From the NCBI GenBank assembly GCA_963920765.1, contig OY987245.1, forward strand, positions 1,118,501 to 1,182,500: DNA of 64,000 bases, written 5' to 3'. The position numbers and the translations under genes were made by a program. The notes beneath the pieces are model-generated. The model saw nothing but the letters and a program-made list of their open reading frames with translations, had not been told where the DNA came from and did no database searches. Origin of the DNA: Ulota crispa (lineage: Eukaryota; Streptophyta; Bryopsida; Orthotrichales; Orthotrichaceae). How positions within the stretch are numbered: the first letter of the stretch is position 1; every line of letters starts with the position of its first letter. Shown here piece by piece: positions 589-44,240 of the stretch.

Positions 589-1078
589 TAATGTCAAGTT
601 CTTGAGAGTCCACATTTGGATGAGGATGCAACTGGATAGGGATGTATTTGGTTTTGACAAATGTGGGATGTTGCCTTTTAGGAAATTATTGTGAAGTAAA
701 TATGCTCAAGAGTTCTTGCAAATTTTCTATGGTGGTAGGAGTAGCAAACAATTTGTGCGGTTTTCTTTTTCCAAAATTTTGGCATGTTCTACTCAACGTT
801 TCAAAGCGTTCTTAGGGTTGTTTATTGGTTCTATTGAGGAGGTGATTTTAAGTTTTGATGCATTCACCGTGGTTGGTAGGTAGAATAACGGCCAATTAAT
901 TGGTAGTGATTAGGAAGAAAAGAAAAGTAGAGGCATAAATGAAATAAAGTTAGGGTTAGGAAATACTTGCATCAAGTAAATCATGTTGCAAGTTTCAACA
1001 ATGCTTGTCTACAATGGCAAGATTGTGGTGGATGAAGAAGGTTGGAGAAGTCATGTTGTGAAATTAGGTTGAGCTACC
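589..1078 (+). other. Retrotransposon leader between LTR and gag
   Basis: This stretch lies between the 5' LTR and the gag start codon. It has no long ORF and no recognisable primer-binding site. It probably holds the RNA leader and packaging region. Confidence 0.6.
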
Positions 1079-2161
1079 ATGGATCGTGAGCACGTAGCCG
1101 GAGATCCGCGAAGGCTTACAATACCGGAAGGAGTGGAGTCGGAGTTGGCTTCATTCATACAACAAATTCAAAATGTGTTTCAAGCGGCGATCCCCCACTT
1201 GGTGCAAGAACTTTTAGAGCGTGCGACGTTGGGGCCAAGATTGGTAGCGTCATCCACATCCGGAGAAGAAGGACAAGCACCAAGAAGAATGGAAGAGCCT
1301 CGAGGTGATGAATTTCATATCAAGGAATCAAAAGTAGCAGAATTGAATAAATTTTCCGGAAGGAAGAGTAACGAGGTGTACCGGTGGCTTGCACAATTGC
1401 GTTTGGTATTCCGAGGTAAGCCACGCGCTTATAATTTTGATGCCAATAAAGTCGCTTATGCTCTTTCATATATGACAGGGGCTGCACAAAATTGGGCAAT
1501 GCCACTTTTGCAAGTCCTTGATGAAAGACGTGATCATGAGCTGTTGACAAATTATGATGCTTTCCGGAAATCCATTATTGGAGTTTACGGTGACTTGGAT
1601 AGACAAGGTAATGCAAAAGACCATTTAGGTCGGCTTAGGCAAACCGGTTTGGCGGCATCATATATTTCTACATTTAATGAATATGCCGCTCAAGTCGAAT
1701 GGAATGAAGCTAGCTTGGTGGCTCGGTTTCGAGGAGGACTCATAGATGAGATTTTGGATTCCATAACCGCCGCAGAGACCCAACCACAAAGACTTCAAGA
1801 TTGGATGGCAATAGTGTTCCGGATTGATGAAAGGCTATGGGGCCAACGGCAAAATTAGCGGGTACAATCTGATTCCCAAAATGTTAGAATTCCAACCGCT
1901 CCTTTTTGTAATCCAAGTGCAAGGTCTCAAGCAAATTCGGGCCCACTGCCTATGGAGCTTGGCGCGACTCGAGCCACGCAAGCTTCGGCAAAAACGGCAG
2001 CAGAACGGCTAGAGTATCAACGCCAGGGGCGATGTTGGAGTTGCGGCAAACTAGGACATATTAGAGCTAAGTGCCCCACAAATCCCTCTAAGCCACTTTC
2101 AATTTTGGCTACCATGAAGATGGAAGAAACAACCTCGAGAAAAGAGGAAGCCCGGGACTGA
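1079..2161 (+). pseudogene. gag: Gag of the chromovirus (internal stop)
   Basis: The frame runs from ATG 1079 to TGA 2159-2161 with one internal TAG at 1856-1858, which sits where a CAG codon would fit. The N-terminal two thirds resembles the retrotransposon Gag capsid domain. The C-terminal part carries a CX2CX4HX4C zinc knuckle (CWSCGKLGHIRAKC, near 2032-2073) that binds the element's RNA. The downstream pol reading frame is in a different phase, so an indel or frameshift site lies around 2100-2160. Gag would form the cytoplasmic particle in which reverse transcription occurs. Confidence 0.85.
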
Positions 2162-3438
2162 GTGGGAGGATTCAGTACCCGGGCATTGTCCAGACGGCGG
2201 CGGCTACAATCCCGAAACAAAGCAAGAGCACAAAACGAGGGGATGATGAGCTTGATCATGAGCAAGGTTTGCAATGGAAAGAACCTCTAGTGATCCACGA
2301 GTATCCGGGAAATGTATTGACTCCATTAATTCTATGGGCTACCTTGGATCCGGAGGCCCATGTAACATTGGATGCTACAATCAACTCCATGGCGGCCTCC
2401 ACCCTAGTGGGCTCAGGAGTCACAAGAATCTTCATGCATCCTAGGTTTGCAGAGGAGATCAATGCAATCCTAAAACTCAAGGGAGCACCAAGAGAAGTCC
2501 GGGTGATTGATAGCCAAATGATTAATTCCGGACTTATTACATACAAAGCGGTGGTTGAACTTGTAATTGGAAGTCATCGTAAGAAGTTGGTAGCAGATAT
2601 CACCAACACAGAAAGATACCCATTTATTTTGGGCATCTCTAAGTTGATTCGTCACAACCCAACTATTTGTTGGTCACAAAGGAGTACAATATTTAACTCA
2701 GCATATTATAGGGCAAATTATACAATGCCTGAAATTATGAGCCTCCATTCCGGAACTGGGAATGATGCTTGGCGACAGTCAACGGATGGTGGGATTACCG
2801 CAAGTGCACTACATTCACAAAGCAAAGTTTACGAAGGAAGAATTGAAAAAGAAATTAGCAAAGGAGGAGGCGCCGCGGGCCTTGCAGGCGCTGCGGGCTT
2901 GTCAGGGCCCACAAACAGCCTACGCGTTGGCGCTGCAAGCCTGTCGGGGCTTGTAGGCAACCCAGGCGCTAGCGCTACGGTCCTGCCGGGACTGCTGGGA
3001 CCTGCCGGGCGGGCCCAGGCAGTGAGCCCGGCCCCGCCACCTGGCAACCGAATGCCGGCTGCCGACTGCGTGCTGGCGGCTGAGGGCATCCCTGCCCTGA
3101 TACCCTCCCCGACACCCGGCATAGGGATACCGAGTGCAAAGACTGGTAAGGGGCTTAGGGGTATAGGGCCTGGTAAGCTAATAAAAGGTACTGGGCCCGT
3201 TACAAGAAACTTAATTGCCTTAACGCACTCCTTTGTGTTAGCGACCGCTTTTTGTTTTTCGGCAAAAAATGCGGAGATTTATGCACTCGATATTTCTAAG
3301 GTGAGTCTTTCTAGTACAAAGAATTCTTCAATTCCAGAGGAATACTGCAATTTGAGTGGAACTTTTAGTGAGCAGGCATCAAATGAGTTGCCAAAACACG
3401 GCGTGGCGGACATGAGGATTGAATTCAAGCAGAGCTAG
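2162..3438 (+). pseudogene. Aspartic protease region plus odd GC-rich insert
   Basis: The open frame from about 2160 to 3438 contains a retropepsin-like domain. The active-site region reads VGSGVTRIFM where a functional enzyme has a DSG motif, so the catalytic Asp is replaced by Gly. The sequence after about 2865 is a GC-rich Gly/Ala/Pro-rich stretch unlike protease or reverse transcriptase (see separate entry). The frame ends in TAG at 3436-3438. The enzyme normally cleaves the Gag-Pol polyprotein; this copy should be inactive. Confidence 0.75.
2865..3190 (+). repeat. GC-rich imperfect repeat inside pol
   Basis: A block much richer in G and C than its AT-rich surroundings, made of imperfect GGCGCTGC/CTTGTCGGGGC-like units. 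It translates to a Gly/Ala/Leu/Pro low-complexity segment between the protease and reverse transcriptase. It is not a known chromovirus domain and looks like an expansion or inserted foreign segment. Confidence 0.6.
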
Positions 3439-4167
3439 GAGCCACAAAATACTGGTCTGCGGCCTATGTCACCGGCGGAATTAGAAAAGCTTCGCAAGTA
3501 TTTAGAGGAAAATTTAGGGAAATGATGGATTTGACAGTCCAAATCCCCGGTATCGGCACCAATTGTATTTGCCAAGAAGAAAGATGATTCCATCAGAGTT
3601 TACGTGGATTATTGAAATTTGAATAAAGTTACAATCCAAAATTGCTACCCGTTACTCCTTATTTCGGAGCTCACAGACCGGTTGGTGGGAGCAAAGATTT
3701 TCACTAAGCTGGATATAAGACAAGCATACCACCGAGTGCAGATGGCATTGGGACATGAGTTCAAAACGGCATTCAAAACACAGTATGGGTTATTCGAGTA
3801 TTTAGTGATGCCTTTTAGATTAACCAATGTGCCTGCCCAATTTCATTCTTACATGCAAGGGATCTTTGAAGATCTATTGGACATTTCCATAGTAATATAT
3901 TTGGACGACATCCTCATTTTTTCAAAAGATCTGGAAGAACATGTACAAGTCGTGCAGGAAGTTCTTCAACGATTGAAGAAACATGGACTTTATGTCAAAG
4001 AATCAAAATGTCAGTTTCATTGTCAATCTGTTGAGTTTTTAGGGATGGTGGTGTCTGCTAAAGGGTTGGAAATGTGCCAAAACAAGATTCAAACCATTAA
4101 AGATTGGCCCACACCAAAAATCGTAAAGGAAATGCAAGCATTCCTTGGCTTTGCCAATTTTTATTGA
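3439..4167 (+). pseudogene. Reverse transcriptase domain
   Basis: Ty3/Gypsy reverse transcriptase. The N-terminal part (about 3460-3618) is broken by several stops and a frame change, but the LRPMSPAEL-like and VFAKKKDDS-like blocks are readable. From 3619 the frame is open and carries the fingers and palm with the TKLDIRQAYHRV block and the catalytic YLDD motif (near 3900-3911), then the thumb-proximal FLG segments. The frame stops at 4165-4167 at a block that normally runs into RNase H. It would copy the element's RNA into DNA. Confidence 0.9.
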
Positions 4168-4779
4168 TGTTTTATATGTGATTATTTTAGGATTGCCGTT
4201 CTCCTTATCATGCTGACAAAAAAAGATAAAAAATTTGAATGGACTATAGAAGTGGATCGGGCTTTCATGGAACTTTGATCAAGATTTCTCCAAGCACCGG
4301 TATTGCTCCACCTTAATTTTGAACGACCTTTCATTGTAGAGGCGAATGCATCCAATGTGGCAACATGAGCTATTCTTTCACAGCACGAGGATGATGGGCA
4401 TCTCCACCCTTGTGCATTTTGTAGTTCAAAGATATCTCCAGCAGAACAAAACTATGATATCTATGATAAGGAGCTCTTAAGTATAATTTTGGCGTTTCAA
4501 GACTGGCGGGTATATTTGGAAGGATCACCGGATCAAATTCGGGTATTTTTGAACCACAAAAATTTGAAGTATTTTCTTACTACAAAACAATTAAACCGAC
4601 GCCAAGCTCAATGGTCTAAATTCCTATTTGCTTTTAACTTTGAAATTCACCACCGAGCAGGATCGCTAAATGGAAGGGCAGACAGTCTTTCTGAACAAGT
4701 GGATGTCACCGAGGGACAAAATAAAGAGAATCAACCCTTATTGCAATTGGCTGCGCTTGAATCTCATGAACCGGTATAG
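4168..4779 (+). pseudogene. RNase H domain
   Basis: This is the continuation of pol. The block PFIVEANASN (near 4330) is the start of the RNase H fold, where the usual catalytic Asp is Asn, followed by an in-frame stop. From 4489 the frame is open and shows the VFLNHKNLKYFL and HHRAGSLNGRADSLS blocks typical of the C-terminal part of Ty3/Gypsy RNase H. The frame ends at TAG 4777-4779. Confidence 0.85.
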
Positions 4780-5562
4780 GCGGATGTATAGATTATAGAA
4801 CGATTTAAGACAGCGTTGCAAGAGGATGCCACTCTACAACCACTATTGTCATTTTTCAAAGACAATTCCAAGCAACCTCCCCGAGATATACGCCAACGAC
4901 TTCAGGGTTACACGTTGGATAATAGAATCCTTCGTTTTAAGGATTTGATATATGTACCAGACGATGAGGAATTCAAGCGGCAATTTTTGCAATCTCGGCA
5001 TGATGCACCAGCCGCGGGACACCAAGGGAGAGCTAAAACTTTGAATTTGGTTAGCCAAATTTTTTATTGGCCCACATTACGCCGCTATGTTCACCTGTAT
5101 GTTGAGGGATGTGACTTGTATCAACGGTTGAAATCAACTCACCATCCTAGATATGGACTAATGCAACCCATTTCGGCCAGTCATGCACCGTGGAAAAGAA
5201 TTTCTACCAATTTCATAATAAAATTACCAAATAGCAGTGGACATGACTCTATCATGGTAGTGGTCAATAAAAACACAAAACTAGGTCACTTTATTCCTAC
5301 AAAGAAAACGGTTACCTCCAACGAAACCGCTTCATTATATTTACATAATATTTGGAAGCTTCATGGCATACCGGAGGAGGTAATTTTGGATCGTGGACCA
5401 GTTTTTGTTTCTAAGTTCATAAGAAAACTTTGCGAATTCCTTAGGATTCGGCCATCTCCAACCACGGCTTTTTATCCTCAAGCGGACGGACAAACTAAAA
5501 GGGTAAATCAAATGCTTGAGCAATTTCTTCAAACTTTCACTACAACTCGGCAAGATGATTAG
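4780..5562 (+). pseudogene. Integrase: zinc-binding and catalytic core
   Basis: The open frame from 4816 to 5562 holds the integrase HHCC region (HDAPAAGH, then YWPTLRRYV and GCDLYQR, in which the second Cys is Tyr) and the DDE core. Two of the three acidic residues are changed: the first Asp reads VVVNK and the final Glu reads QTKRVNQ. The middle Asp survives in LDRGPVF. Both changes fit G-to-A transitions. A TAG ends the frame at 5560-5562. It would insert element DNA into chromatin; this copy is inactive. Confidence 0.88.
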
Positions 5563-23876: not shown

Positions 23877-33061
<9,185 letters not shown>

Positions 33062-41205: not shown

Positions 41206-44200
41206 TTACCAGTCAGGAATACATGTGCCAGCTCCGTCTGGCTTGTACCCGTCACTACAGCCGCACACGTACTCTAAGGGAGATTGAGGCTGGGAGTAAC
41301 ACTTGGCCCCCCAATCGCCTTCCGATTTGCACGTCTCCTTTAGATCACAGCCAGAGGCGTTGCATGCTGTCAGTGCACAAATGAAGGGCAAATTTACATC
41401 GCAGCTCAGGTCGTTGAACATGTAGGGGAGCTTCTCCGGGTTACGAGCCTGCTCGCGGGACTCAAACTTCACAGTTAGACAACCCTCATAACCTCCCCGG
41501 TTGTTCGGCTCACCGTAATTCCAGAAGGTCTGATTAAAGCCAACGCAAGGCGATAGAGGGTAATTCCATCCCCTGGTTGTTGGGCTGATTGTGTACGGTC
41601 TCCGGCCTCCCAAGTAGCAGCCCAGTCCCAAAGGGTTGGTCATATCACCAAACACCGTCTCATTTGACTTGTAACACATATGCCCAACGTCTCTGAGCTC
41701 CGCCCAGTTGGAAACTGCTGCCAAGTGCCCATTGGAATGTCCCCGGCAGTAATATTCAGCATCCACCCACTTCATCGGCTCCTTGACCAACATAAAGCAT
41801 GTCCCTGACTTCCGTCCCGCCTTGTATCCCGGAGGACAGCCAAACGGAGGAGGAGGAGGAGGAGGAGAGCTGACGGGAGGGGGTGGAGGGGGGGAAGCGG
41901 TAGGAGGTGGCGGTGATAGGGCAGGAGGAGGTGGTGAGTAGGTAGGAGGTGGGGGTGACAGTGTGGGAGGAGGAGGGGGTGGTGAATAAGTAGGAGGAGG
42001 AGGTGACATTGTGGGAGGAGGAGGAGGAGGTGACAATGTGGGAGGAGGAGGTGACAAGGTAGGTGGAGGAGGTGAAAAGGCAGGTGAGGGCGGAGACAGG
42101 GTGGGGGGAGAGGGTGTCACAGGCGTCGGGGTAGGCGTCCCAGGCGTTGGAGTAGGCGTCCCAGGCGTTGGGGTGGGTGTCCCAGGCGTCGGGGTAATGT
42201 CAGGAGGTGCATAGAACGCAGCACATGTGGCGGTATCCTTCTGCCCAGCAGAGCCAGGAACACAATTGCCCGTGAGAGAAATGATGTCGCCAAGCGCAAA
42301 ACATGAAGAATCGGCTCCAGTGAAGTAATTGTCGTCGAGCACAACAGAATTCAGATTGTCAAGTCCGCAGAGATCATCCGGCACTCTTCCACTGAGCTTG
42401 TTCTTGTTCATGGCAAAAACCTCCAAGTCCCGCATGTTTTTGATGCTGGACGGGATCTCTCCAGAGATGCGATTGTCACTGTAGTCGAAGAGATGAACTA
42501 AACCCAGGCTACCGATTTCGTCTGGAAGTTCACCTTCAAAATTGTTGTTCAGAGCCACCAACTCCTCCAACGTCTGATTCAGATTCCCAATGGACTTCGG
42601 AATGTCTCCATAGAAGTTGTTGTTCGCGAGAACCATCGCTGATGTCCGGGCATTTCCAAACGTATCCGGCAGCTCACCCTCGAAGTTACAGTTGTTCACA
42701 AAGATCGCATCGAGAGGCTTTAAGAAAAGCTCCCTGGGCAACTTGCCGTAAAACTCGTTGAACCGGATGTCCAGGTAGGTGAGGTTAGGGATGTCTAGAA
42801 CCACATCGGGAAAAGCGCCACCAAACAAATTGTTGCTGAGATCAAGTTCGAGCAGCGTCTTCATGTACTTGAAGGTTTCTGGGATATATCCACTGAATCT
42901 GTTGCTGTTTAAATGGAACAGACCAATTTCACGAAGCAGGCCTAGCTCCGGAACCAGCTTACCCTTTAAGTTAGCATCGTTCAAGTCGATGCCAGACACA
43001 ACCTCAAGGTAGGCGAGATTCGGATCTATCGGAGGAGAGCAGAATACTCCTTCGTAGTCACAGACATCGGTCCCCACCCAAGTCTTTGTGATCCCTTGAG
43101 GATCGTCAGTGATAGCCTTCTTCCAGGCCTGCAAAGCTTTCCAGGCCCTCCATTTGCTCCATGCGGGCCCGTGACGACCCACACCATAGGGATGGTGGCC
43201 AACGCCCGGAGGGTGAGGTCCACCAGGGGCAAATCCAGGGCTGTCCTCTGTTAAAGAGATGAGAGAGTATCAGTACCAGTACAGTACGAAGCAGATCAAT
43301 CACATCAACTTTACAATCGATCGAAATACAATATCAACTCCATAACGTCATCCACAGATGCAAGAACACCAAACTGTTAAACCGAAAAGACGTACCAACA
43401 TTAGTACGCTAAATAAAATCGGATCTGCGAAAGCGGAAGCAGGACAGAACAAGTTATCTTACTAACGGACAGACCGAGTTTTCCGGAATCCAGGGCCTAT
43501 AATTACGGGTGGATTGTTCGACTATATCCTCCATGCCATAGCTCAAGACTCTTCCAGAGGAATCAATTGTAGCAAATGTACGATTAAATCTCTATCCACA
43601 TCCAGATGATATAGAAGAAAACGAATCAGGTAAAGCTCAGTTCACGGCCTATCGTGCCAGTGTCCATTCAGTTAGTCTATACAGGAAGATTTGAGATTAG
43701 TCGAAAGAGACAGTTACGAACTAATGTCACACTATCTACCAATTAGCATAGCCTCCCTACGCCGAAAAACACCCATCCAATAGATCGCCCTTCTACCAAG
43801 ATGGATACGCTGGGTCATGGCAGTACACAATGCTCCACGCTCCACAAGCAGGAAAGGTACTCAAACACCCGACCTAATTTTCTTAGATTGAGGCTCAGTT
43901 TCTGTTCTTCGTCTCAGAAGAACGAATCGGTTTAAGGAACCCTTGGCATTTGAGTAACTACGAAGGGATATAGCATTCCTTAAAGAACCTACATTGCGAT
44001 GCATCTGTCGGACGTTGATAAGCCCAATATGCCCGCCACACAAACAGAGAAAAAACAACCACACTCACTCACAAGTACAGAAACTCGGAAGAGAGAGCTG
44101 CGATAAGGCTATCACAGCACACAAAGATAGTCCTTTTACCAATATCAAATCTTCTTTGAGATGAAAGAACAGAACTTACCAATAGCTGCGAACCCAGAGC

Positions 44201-44240
44201 ACAAAGAGGCCAACACGGATAGCAGCAACAGCGTCTTCAT
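41206..44240 (-). CDS. Secreted LRR-extensin fused to C-type lectin and EGF-like domains
   Basis: A 700-residue protein in two exons: 44240-44180 and 43247-41206, joined across a 932-bp GT-AG intron in phase 1. Residues 1-19 are a signal peptide. In-frame upstream ATGs (44303, 44291) would only push this signal inward, so 44240 is preferred. Residues about 58-362 are the LRX N-terminal module: a WVGTDVCDYEGVFC cap, ten or so LRRs including LFHLNSNRFSG and LDIRFNEFYG blocks, and the closing Cys cluster (336, 349, 362). Residues 370-398 are TPTPG repeats; 399-488 are SPPPP-type extensin repeats with two TYSPPPP sites. Residues 491-645 are a C-type lectin domain with EPN (600-602) and FND (631-633) calcium-site motifs; 649-696 are a Cys-rich EGF-like tail. 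No membrane segment. Likely hydroxyproline-glycosylated and wall-bound. Land-plant LRX proteins bind RALF peptides; whether this one does is inference. Confidence 0.93.
43248..44179 (-). other. Intron of the LRX-lectin gene
   Basis: Donor G|GTAAG at 44179 and acceptor TTTAACAG| at 43248. It separates the signal-peptide exon from the rest and splits a Glu codon. No repeat or ORF of note inside. Confidence 0.85.

Follow-up and report, generated by a model that had tools for sequence, protein, structure and literature searches.

On the minus strand of the window (the whole 64-kb stretch of Ulota crispa DNA that was analysed, 64,000 nucleotides) lies a two-exon gene for an LRR-extensin (LRX) protein that continues, after its Pro-rich part, into a C-type lectin domain (CTLD). 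All features of this gene given below are on the minus strand. Exon 1 (44180-44240, 61 nt) comprises an ATG at 44240, the signal peptide MKTLLLLSVLASLCSGFAAI and the first base of codon 21, and a check of sequence and splice signals places its donor side at ATTG/GTAAGT. The intron (43248-44179, 932 nt) is of the GT-AG type, contains in-frame stops and ends at an acceptor at 43248 that reads TTTAACAG/AGGACAGC. Exon 2 (41206-43247) holds the remaining coding sequence through a TAA stop, within a frame of 687 codons that is open without interruption over 41206-43269. The spliced frame has 2103 nt and encodes 700 amino acids plus the stop. The first-pass annotation had assigned the protein to a single exon, which is correct for everything after residue 20 but not for the leader, encoded by exon 1.

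The 700-residue protein is ordered into a leader (residues 1-20), a segment of PPGVGHH-type motifs (21-49), an LRR domain (50-366), a Pro-rich rod (367-488), the CTLD (491-645) and a Cys-rich tail (648-700). Judged by eye and by hydropathy, the exon 1 leader is hydrophobic (core mean KD of 1.99), ends in SGFAAI and provides the N-terminal signal peptide that belongs to an LRX. No membrane anchor is suggested past residue 40, where the best 19-residue hydropathy mean is 1.15, and we infer that the protein is secreted. The lectin part is unlikely to be spliced out, since the frame is open across the junction and relatives have the same order. A tblastn search of the 64-kb window for a close paralog returned only the gene itself and a chance piece (24.6 bits, E 0.12). 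Elsewhere in the window, on the plus strand, we noted Ty3-type retrotransposon pieces at 1073-5562, whose separate open frames match gag, reverse transcriptase and integrase, and a probable receptor-like protein kinase exon (Pkinase) at 29449-29955.

An LRX-type LRR domain behind a PPGVGHH-type segment

The mature part of the protein starts with the segment DSPGFAPGGPHPPGVGHHPYGVGRHGPA (43162-43245), a tandem of PPGVGHH-type motifs seen in the sequence. Tandem motifs of the HPPGVGHHPPGVGRH type precede the LRR in the window protein and in database relatives P0002-P0007 and P0009-P0011 (the relatives are described below). HPPGVG is present in 9 of the 10 relatives, out of 12, that reach this segment, the Physcomitrium patens protein P0013 having a looser form; the Marchantia protein P0015 has five HPPGVG copies. 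The motif resembles a consensus that we take to be the PGxSPGVGH core of CEP peptide hormones, an apparent likeness that we treat as a resemblance only. P. patens is reported, in the available text of one study, to be without CEP genes (PMC4197245).

The LRR domain (42211-43161), with Cys at both ends, was identified by Pfam, by sequence match to the PDB and by modelling. Pfam placed LRR_1, LRR_8 and LRRNT_2 above their curated cutoffs on the open reading frame; NCBIfam gave weak LRR matches only, far below cutoff. The closest solved structure by sequence was Arabidopsis LRX2 (PDB 6qxp, E 2.4e-90), followed among the LRXs by the LRX8 entries 6qwn (E 1.7e-82) and 6tme (E 3.5e-82). When the 679-residue part after the leader was modelled with AlphaFold, the 10-residue pLDDT means in the LRR were mostly 77-96, with one block at 60. 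Furthermore, a Foldseek search with the modelled LRR returned chains of 6qxp, 6qwn or 6tme at all of ranks 1-15 (TM by target length 0.84-0.92, rmsd 1.6-3.6). Sequence match, Foldseek and the LRR tree described below all identify the domain as an LRX-type LRR, and the first-pass annotation was right in recognizing such a module. Entry 6tme is titled 'Monomeric LRX8 in complex with RALF4', and the likeness of fold leads us to predict RALF binding by the window LRR.

A Pro-rich rod devoid of YxY motifs

Directly after the LRR comes a hydroxyproline-type Pro-rich rod (41845-42210), presumably hydroxylated, in which TPTPG repeats (42118-42195) are followed by SPPPP repeats. It holds 10 SPPP+ repeats in 124 residues, so that Ser-Pro(3-5) extensin modules follow the LRR as in other LRXs and its description as extensin-like stands. 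The further claim that the rod is crosslinkable fares poorly. The window rod contains two isolated Tyr and no YxY, and among 13 rods (those of the window and 12 relatives, 33-124 residues long with 2-10 SPPP+ repeats) YxY was found in none and Tyr in only three, being entirely absent from the other 10; none of them qualifies as a classical crosslinking extensin. According to the available text of Liu et al. 2016, YxY occurs mainly in classical extensins, P. patens has no classical extensins, and its five LRXs cluster together (PMC4769139).

The same text places the EXT domain of the LRX class at the C-terminus or close to it (PMC4769139). The statement that known land-plant LRXs end in the extensin part agrees with that class description but fails for the CTLD-bearing LRXs of mosses. 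In the window protein the extensin domain is not the C-terminus, as 212 residues follow the rod, and the protein is therefore filed as an LRX variant and not as a typical member.

A divergent CTLD with an intact calcium/sugar-site motif

The CTLD (41374-41838), with 9 conserved Cys, was identified by Pfam and by a profile search of the PDB. Lectin_C scored 24.4 bits on the whole open reading frame against a curated cutoff of 22.6, with 134 residues aligned to 104 profile positions, and 29.6 bits (E 1.2e-6) on the isolated domain; the domain search proposed with the first-pass annotation thus bears out its C-type lectin domain. Lectin_C was matched by 12 of the 13 family members at E up to 0.1, one being missed, and precomputed Pfam lists record it for only one of the 12 relatives (P0001), which shows that this CTLD is a divergent one. 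At an E threshold of 0.001, a profile built from 11 of the 13 CTLD-plus-tail sequences retrieved 34 PDB sequences, the best at 2e-6; all of them are snaclec-type, Reg/PAP or C-type lectin receptor entries, proteins that share the CTLD fold. These matches were mostly partial, covering the first ~60 residues or a stretch within 91-157, and only four Reg3/PAP rows spanned 1-157; the best were to the N-terminal part of snaclecs. Structure prediction had been suggested for both modules, and succeeded for the LRR, modelled as an LRX fold, but left the CTLD at low pLDDT: in the first of two AlphaFold models its 10-residue means were about 22-38, and the second, made with 13 sequences only, had an overall mean of 41.6. 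A phage collection gave no match to the CTLD and tail.

The sequence of the CTLD includes an EPN motif at residues 600-602 (41503-41511), with Glu 608 eight residues beyond Glu 600, and an ND motif at residues 632-633 (41410-41415), the latter presumably the counterpart of WND in animal lectins. The calcium/sugar-site signature, EPN (or QPD) together with ND, is thus complete in the window protein, and we take the EPN, E at +8 and ND positions to be those of the calcium-site-2 ligands of mannose-binding lectin. Over the 13 sequences these five positions are E in 12, N in 12, E in 13, N in 12 and D in 13. The exception is P0011 (612 aa), which reads Q, D, E, S, D: EPN is replaced by QPD, which in animal lectins is the galactose-type motif, and ND by SD. 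The change in P0011 may have altered the predicted sugar choice, or the loss of Asn from ND may have abolished calcium binding. One or the other is hence not fixed in the family.

The protein ends in a Cys-rich tail (41209-41367) with 7 conserved Cys, including a C-x-C. It had been named an EGF-like domain, a weaker call, since the matches to cEGF (17.8 bits, cutoff 26.6) and EGF_3 (15.3 bits, cutoff 28.5) both stayed below threshold. Altogether, at least 12 of the 13 rows share each of 16 Cys columns, of which 9 fall in the CTLD and 7 in the tail.

Relatives, trees and constraint

A database search with residues 489-700, run over proteins of similar length (132 candidates), yielded 11 proteins of 553-688 aa with E from 5e-117 to 1.7e-65, two of them from Ceratodon purpureus. 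The LRR matched 1857 proteins at E up to 1e-30, and the best 120 of these included the same eleven together with P. patens P0013 and Ceratodon P0012; P0013 carries the CTLD, yet had been missed by the search with residues 489-700. A rod-less LRR+CTLD profile, scored against the 7989 candidates sharing most words, gave 1073 matches, and the best 120 of them contained no new CTLD-bearing protein; the Marchantia protein P0015, which is among the best 120 LRR matches, is not among these. When a CTLD profile was run over the 181 proteins collected, 12 of them, P0001-P0011 and P0013, proved to have the domain, and the remaining 169 gave no match at E up to 1. Outside mosses, no CTLD-bearing LRX was found among the best 120 of the 1857 and the best 120 of the 1073 matches. 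The search for LRR and lectin in one protein therefore produced 12 database proteins with the LRR-rod-CTLD order, from P. patens and, twice, C. purpureus among others. Such a layout is not due to chance, and the architecture is not the one-off that it had first appeared to be: it is a real, conserved variant of the LRX family.

Two further records touch on this family. P0015 is partial and stops soon after the LRR. P0012 (C. purpureus M758_1G050100) has an LRR identical to that of P0010 and matches it up to the rod, after which its lectin region is read in another frame, either through a real loss in one isolate or through an error in the repeat. As for the N-terminus, P0002, P0003, P0005, P0007, P0010 and P0011 open with leaders similar to that of the window protein, P0004, P0006, P0009 and P0013 start without one as recorded, and P0001 and P0008 are truncated there. 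Leader and body are contiguous on the short contigs of P0002 (2907 nt), P0003 (2794 nt) and P0007 (up to 3551 nt), which is suggestive of spliced transcripts, and P0006 and P0009, on longer contigs, open with non-leader stretches that look suggestively like intron read-through. P0011 runs against a simple equation of short contigs with transcripts, having a leader though its longest contig is of 53834 nt.

An LRR tree of 34 chosen proteins and the window, rooted at its midpoint only, placed the window and P0001-P0013 (14 rows) on one side of a branch with support of 100/99, next to P0015. The 20 other rows, among them lycophytes, ferns and seed plants, are all without a CTLD. The window LRR was closest to those of P0001-P0003, and the tree suggests that most CTLD-bearing relatives are mosses. 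Ceratodon belongs to the Dicranidae and Physcomitrium to the Funariidae, different moss subclasses; if inherited, the layout is therefore at least as old as their split.

Over the 78 pairs of 13 sequences, mean identity was 72.3% for the LRR (57-87), 71.8% for the CTLD (56-92) and 57.1% for the tail (38-78). The CTLD is conserved equally with the LRR, which indicates that the lectin head is under constraint. Pair identities in the LRR and CTLD gave a Spearman coefficient of 0.71, for pairs that are not independent. The LRR and CTLD trees both group the window with P0001-P0003 (86/89 and 96/93, respectively). In the LRR tree a single branch (98/98) sets apart a five-row group that includes Ceratodon P0005 and P0010; in the CTLD tree this group requires two changes, and P0010 and P0011 are found there on a long branch. 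We read this disagreement as a probable sign of faster CTLD evolution in P0010 and P0011; a domain swap or conversion may also lie behind it.

Comparison with known proteins

The window protein shares with LRXs such as Arabidopsis LRX2 and pollen LRX8 the leader, the LRR fold, the Cys at both LRR ends and the SPPPP rod that follows. Unlike them, it adds a CTLD and a Cys-rich tail after the rod and a PPGVGHH segment before the LRR, and its rod is without YxY. Langerin/CLEC4K and mincle, animal lectins of the mannose type, have EPN and ND as their site motifs, and the CTLD resembles them in profile match and in both motifs, although the similarity is only about 19-23 bits and the animal proteins have other domain partners. 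Like the plant C-type lectin receptor kinase, it is a receptor-like plant protein with a C-type lectin domain; the LRR and rod replace the kinase, a distinction drawn by description. C-type lectins had been called rare in plants, in line with a review whose available text gives a single gene for them in Arabidopsis (PMC7313013); here this domain is employed in a wall-type protein of mosses. Within the green lineage, the Chlamydomonas mastigoneme protein MST3 also joins C-type lectin domains to poly(Pro)-rich, hydroxyproline-type stretches (PMC11015965, available text). MST3 differs, as far as it can be compared by description, in its length (8572 residues), its five lectin domains, which lie towards the N-terminus, and its PKD2-like membrane part, with no LRR in its domain list.

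We found no description of an LRX with a lectin head in the literature searched, which covered titles and abstract openings, with subscription papers mostly outside coverage. The words 'extensin', 'LRR' and 'leucine-rich' do not occur in the available text of a plant lectin survey (PMC6362431), nor does 'lectin' in the main text of PMC4769139. The public records of the named relatives call them 'hypothetical', 'uncharacterized' or 'cell wall hydroxyproline-rich glycoprotein'. The sequences are therefore known, and the architecture appears to be undescribed.

Possible role of the lectin head

The gene structure, the identity of the domains by profile, the conservation of the layout, the LRX fold of the LRR model and the intact calcium/sugar-site motif are established, and the combination of an LRX fold with a lectin head of the EPN type is read most simply as a RALF dock tethered to glycans. 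We propose a moss LRX whose RALF-docking LRR would be fastened to glycans of the mannose/glucose type through calcium-dependent binding by the lectin head, and give this reading, in which every binding step is predicted, a probability of roughly 0.55. The protein would be secreted to the wall, where its LRR domain would dock a RALF peptide and work with CrRLK1L receptors like the Arabidopsis LRXs. The Pro-rich rod would span the wall and the C-terminal CTLD would bind a mannose/glucose-type glycan in a calcium-dependent manner. In this way the grip of the sensor on wall polysaccharide or on the glycans of glycoproteins would be reversible and sensitive to calcium, and would not depend solely on covalent extensin crosslinks. 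For the putative lectin head, then, we infer Ca2+ binding, sugar binding and an anchoring role.

Published work gives this proposal its setting. LRXs bind RALFs and are not easily extracted from walls (PMC12034098), and they connect functionally to FERONIA-type receptors (PMC12034098; PMC7618880). The available text of the former adds that no LRX-RALF-CrRLK1L ternary complex has been observed so far, and that the LRX and receptor branches may run in parallel. RALF peptides act in P. patens, where they modulate immunity and where five CrRLK1Ls are reported (PMC9933782). Furthermore, a non-covalent anchor is conceivable given that the rods of the family are free of YxY and that P. patens is reported to have no classical extensins.

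The CTLD could instead be a structural or protein-binding module, stabilising the C-terminus or attaching to a protein partner or to the Hyp-arabinosides of the protein itself; like many C-type lectin-like domains of animals, it would then bind no glycan at a calcium site. A disulfide-rich domain with an insert is suggested by the 16 conserved Cys over CTLD and tail and by the 134 residues aligned on 104 Lectin_C positions; P0011 keeps the domain without the EPN and ND forms, and the snaclecs, which supplied the best PDB matches, mostly do not bind sugars. A structural role alone, however, needs none of the site residues E, N, E, N and D, kept in 12, 12, 13, 12 and 13 of 13 sequences, and we consider it rather unlikely. 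A lectin head with a mannose-type EPN motif might also serve as an immune sensor for microbial mannan or related glycans, as animal EPN lectins bind microbial mannans, the LRR-RALF side alerting CrRLK1L receptors. Many immune recognition domains are more variable, whereas this CTLD varies no more than the LRR does; even with RALF peptides modulating immunity in P. patens (PMC9933782), we find such a sensor improbable.

The repetitive rod would be a likely site for a false junction between an LRX and an unrelated lectin, whether made in assembly or in gene prediction, and otherwise nothing favours such a chimera. It is already contradicted by the uninterrupted frame, by the 12 database proteins in the same domain order and by the LRR and CTLD trees, which both place the window with P0001-P0003. 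We therefore regard its chances as close to nil, in agreement with the first-pass annotation, which had dismissed a gene-prediction chimera.

The reading that we favour, an LRR held on glycans through the CTLD, could be carried further. The lectin head would then be an alternative anchor by which mosses hold LRX-RALF sensors on mannan-type glycans through a calcium-gated grip. This may be the older condition, the head having been lost in vascular plants once crosslinking extensins took over, with sugar choice diversifying among paralogs (EPN mostly, QPD in P0011). As a whole, this extension is speculative and on balance unlikely. How LRXs link the wall to RALF/FERONIA-type signalling is described as still puzzling in the available text of a review (PMC12034098), and a conserved LRX with a putative sugar-binding head would give a direct handle on the wall-anchoring question in the gene-targetable P. 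patens, through P0013. In addition, a protein of the moss Physcomitrellopsis africana, Pa1_19801.1, has been reported as a horizontal gene transfer candidate with a match to a mannose-binding C-type lectin (PMC11228847), and may belong to the moss LRX-CTLD family instead of being a recent transfer.
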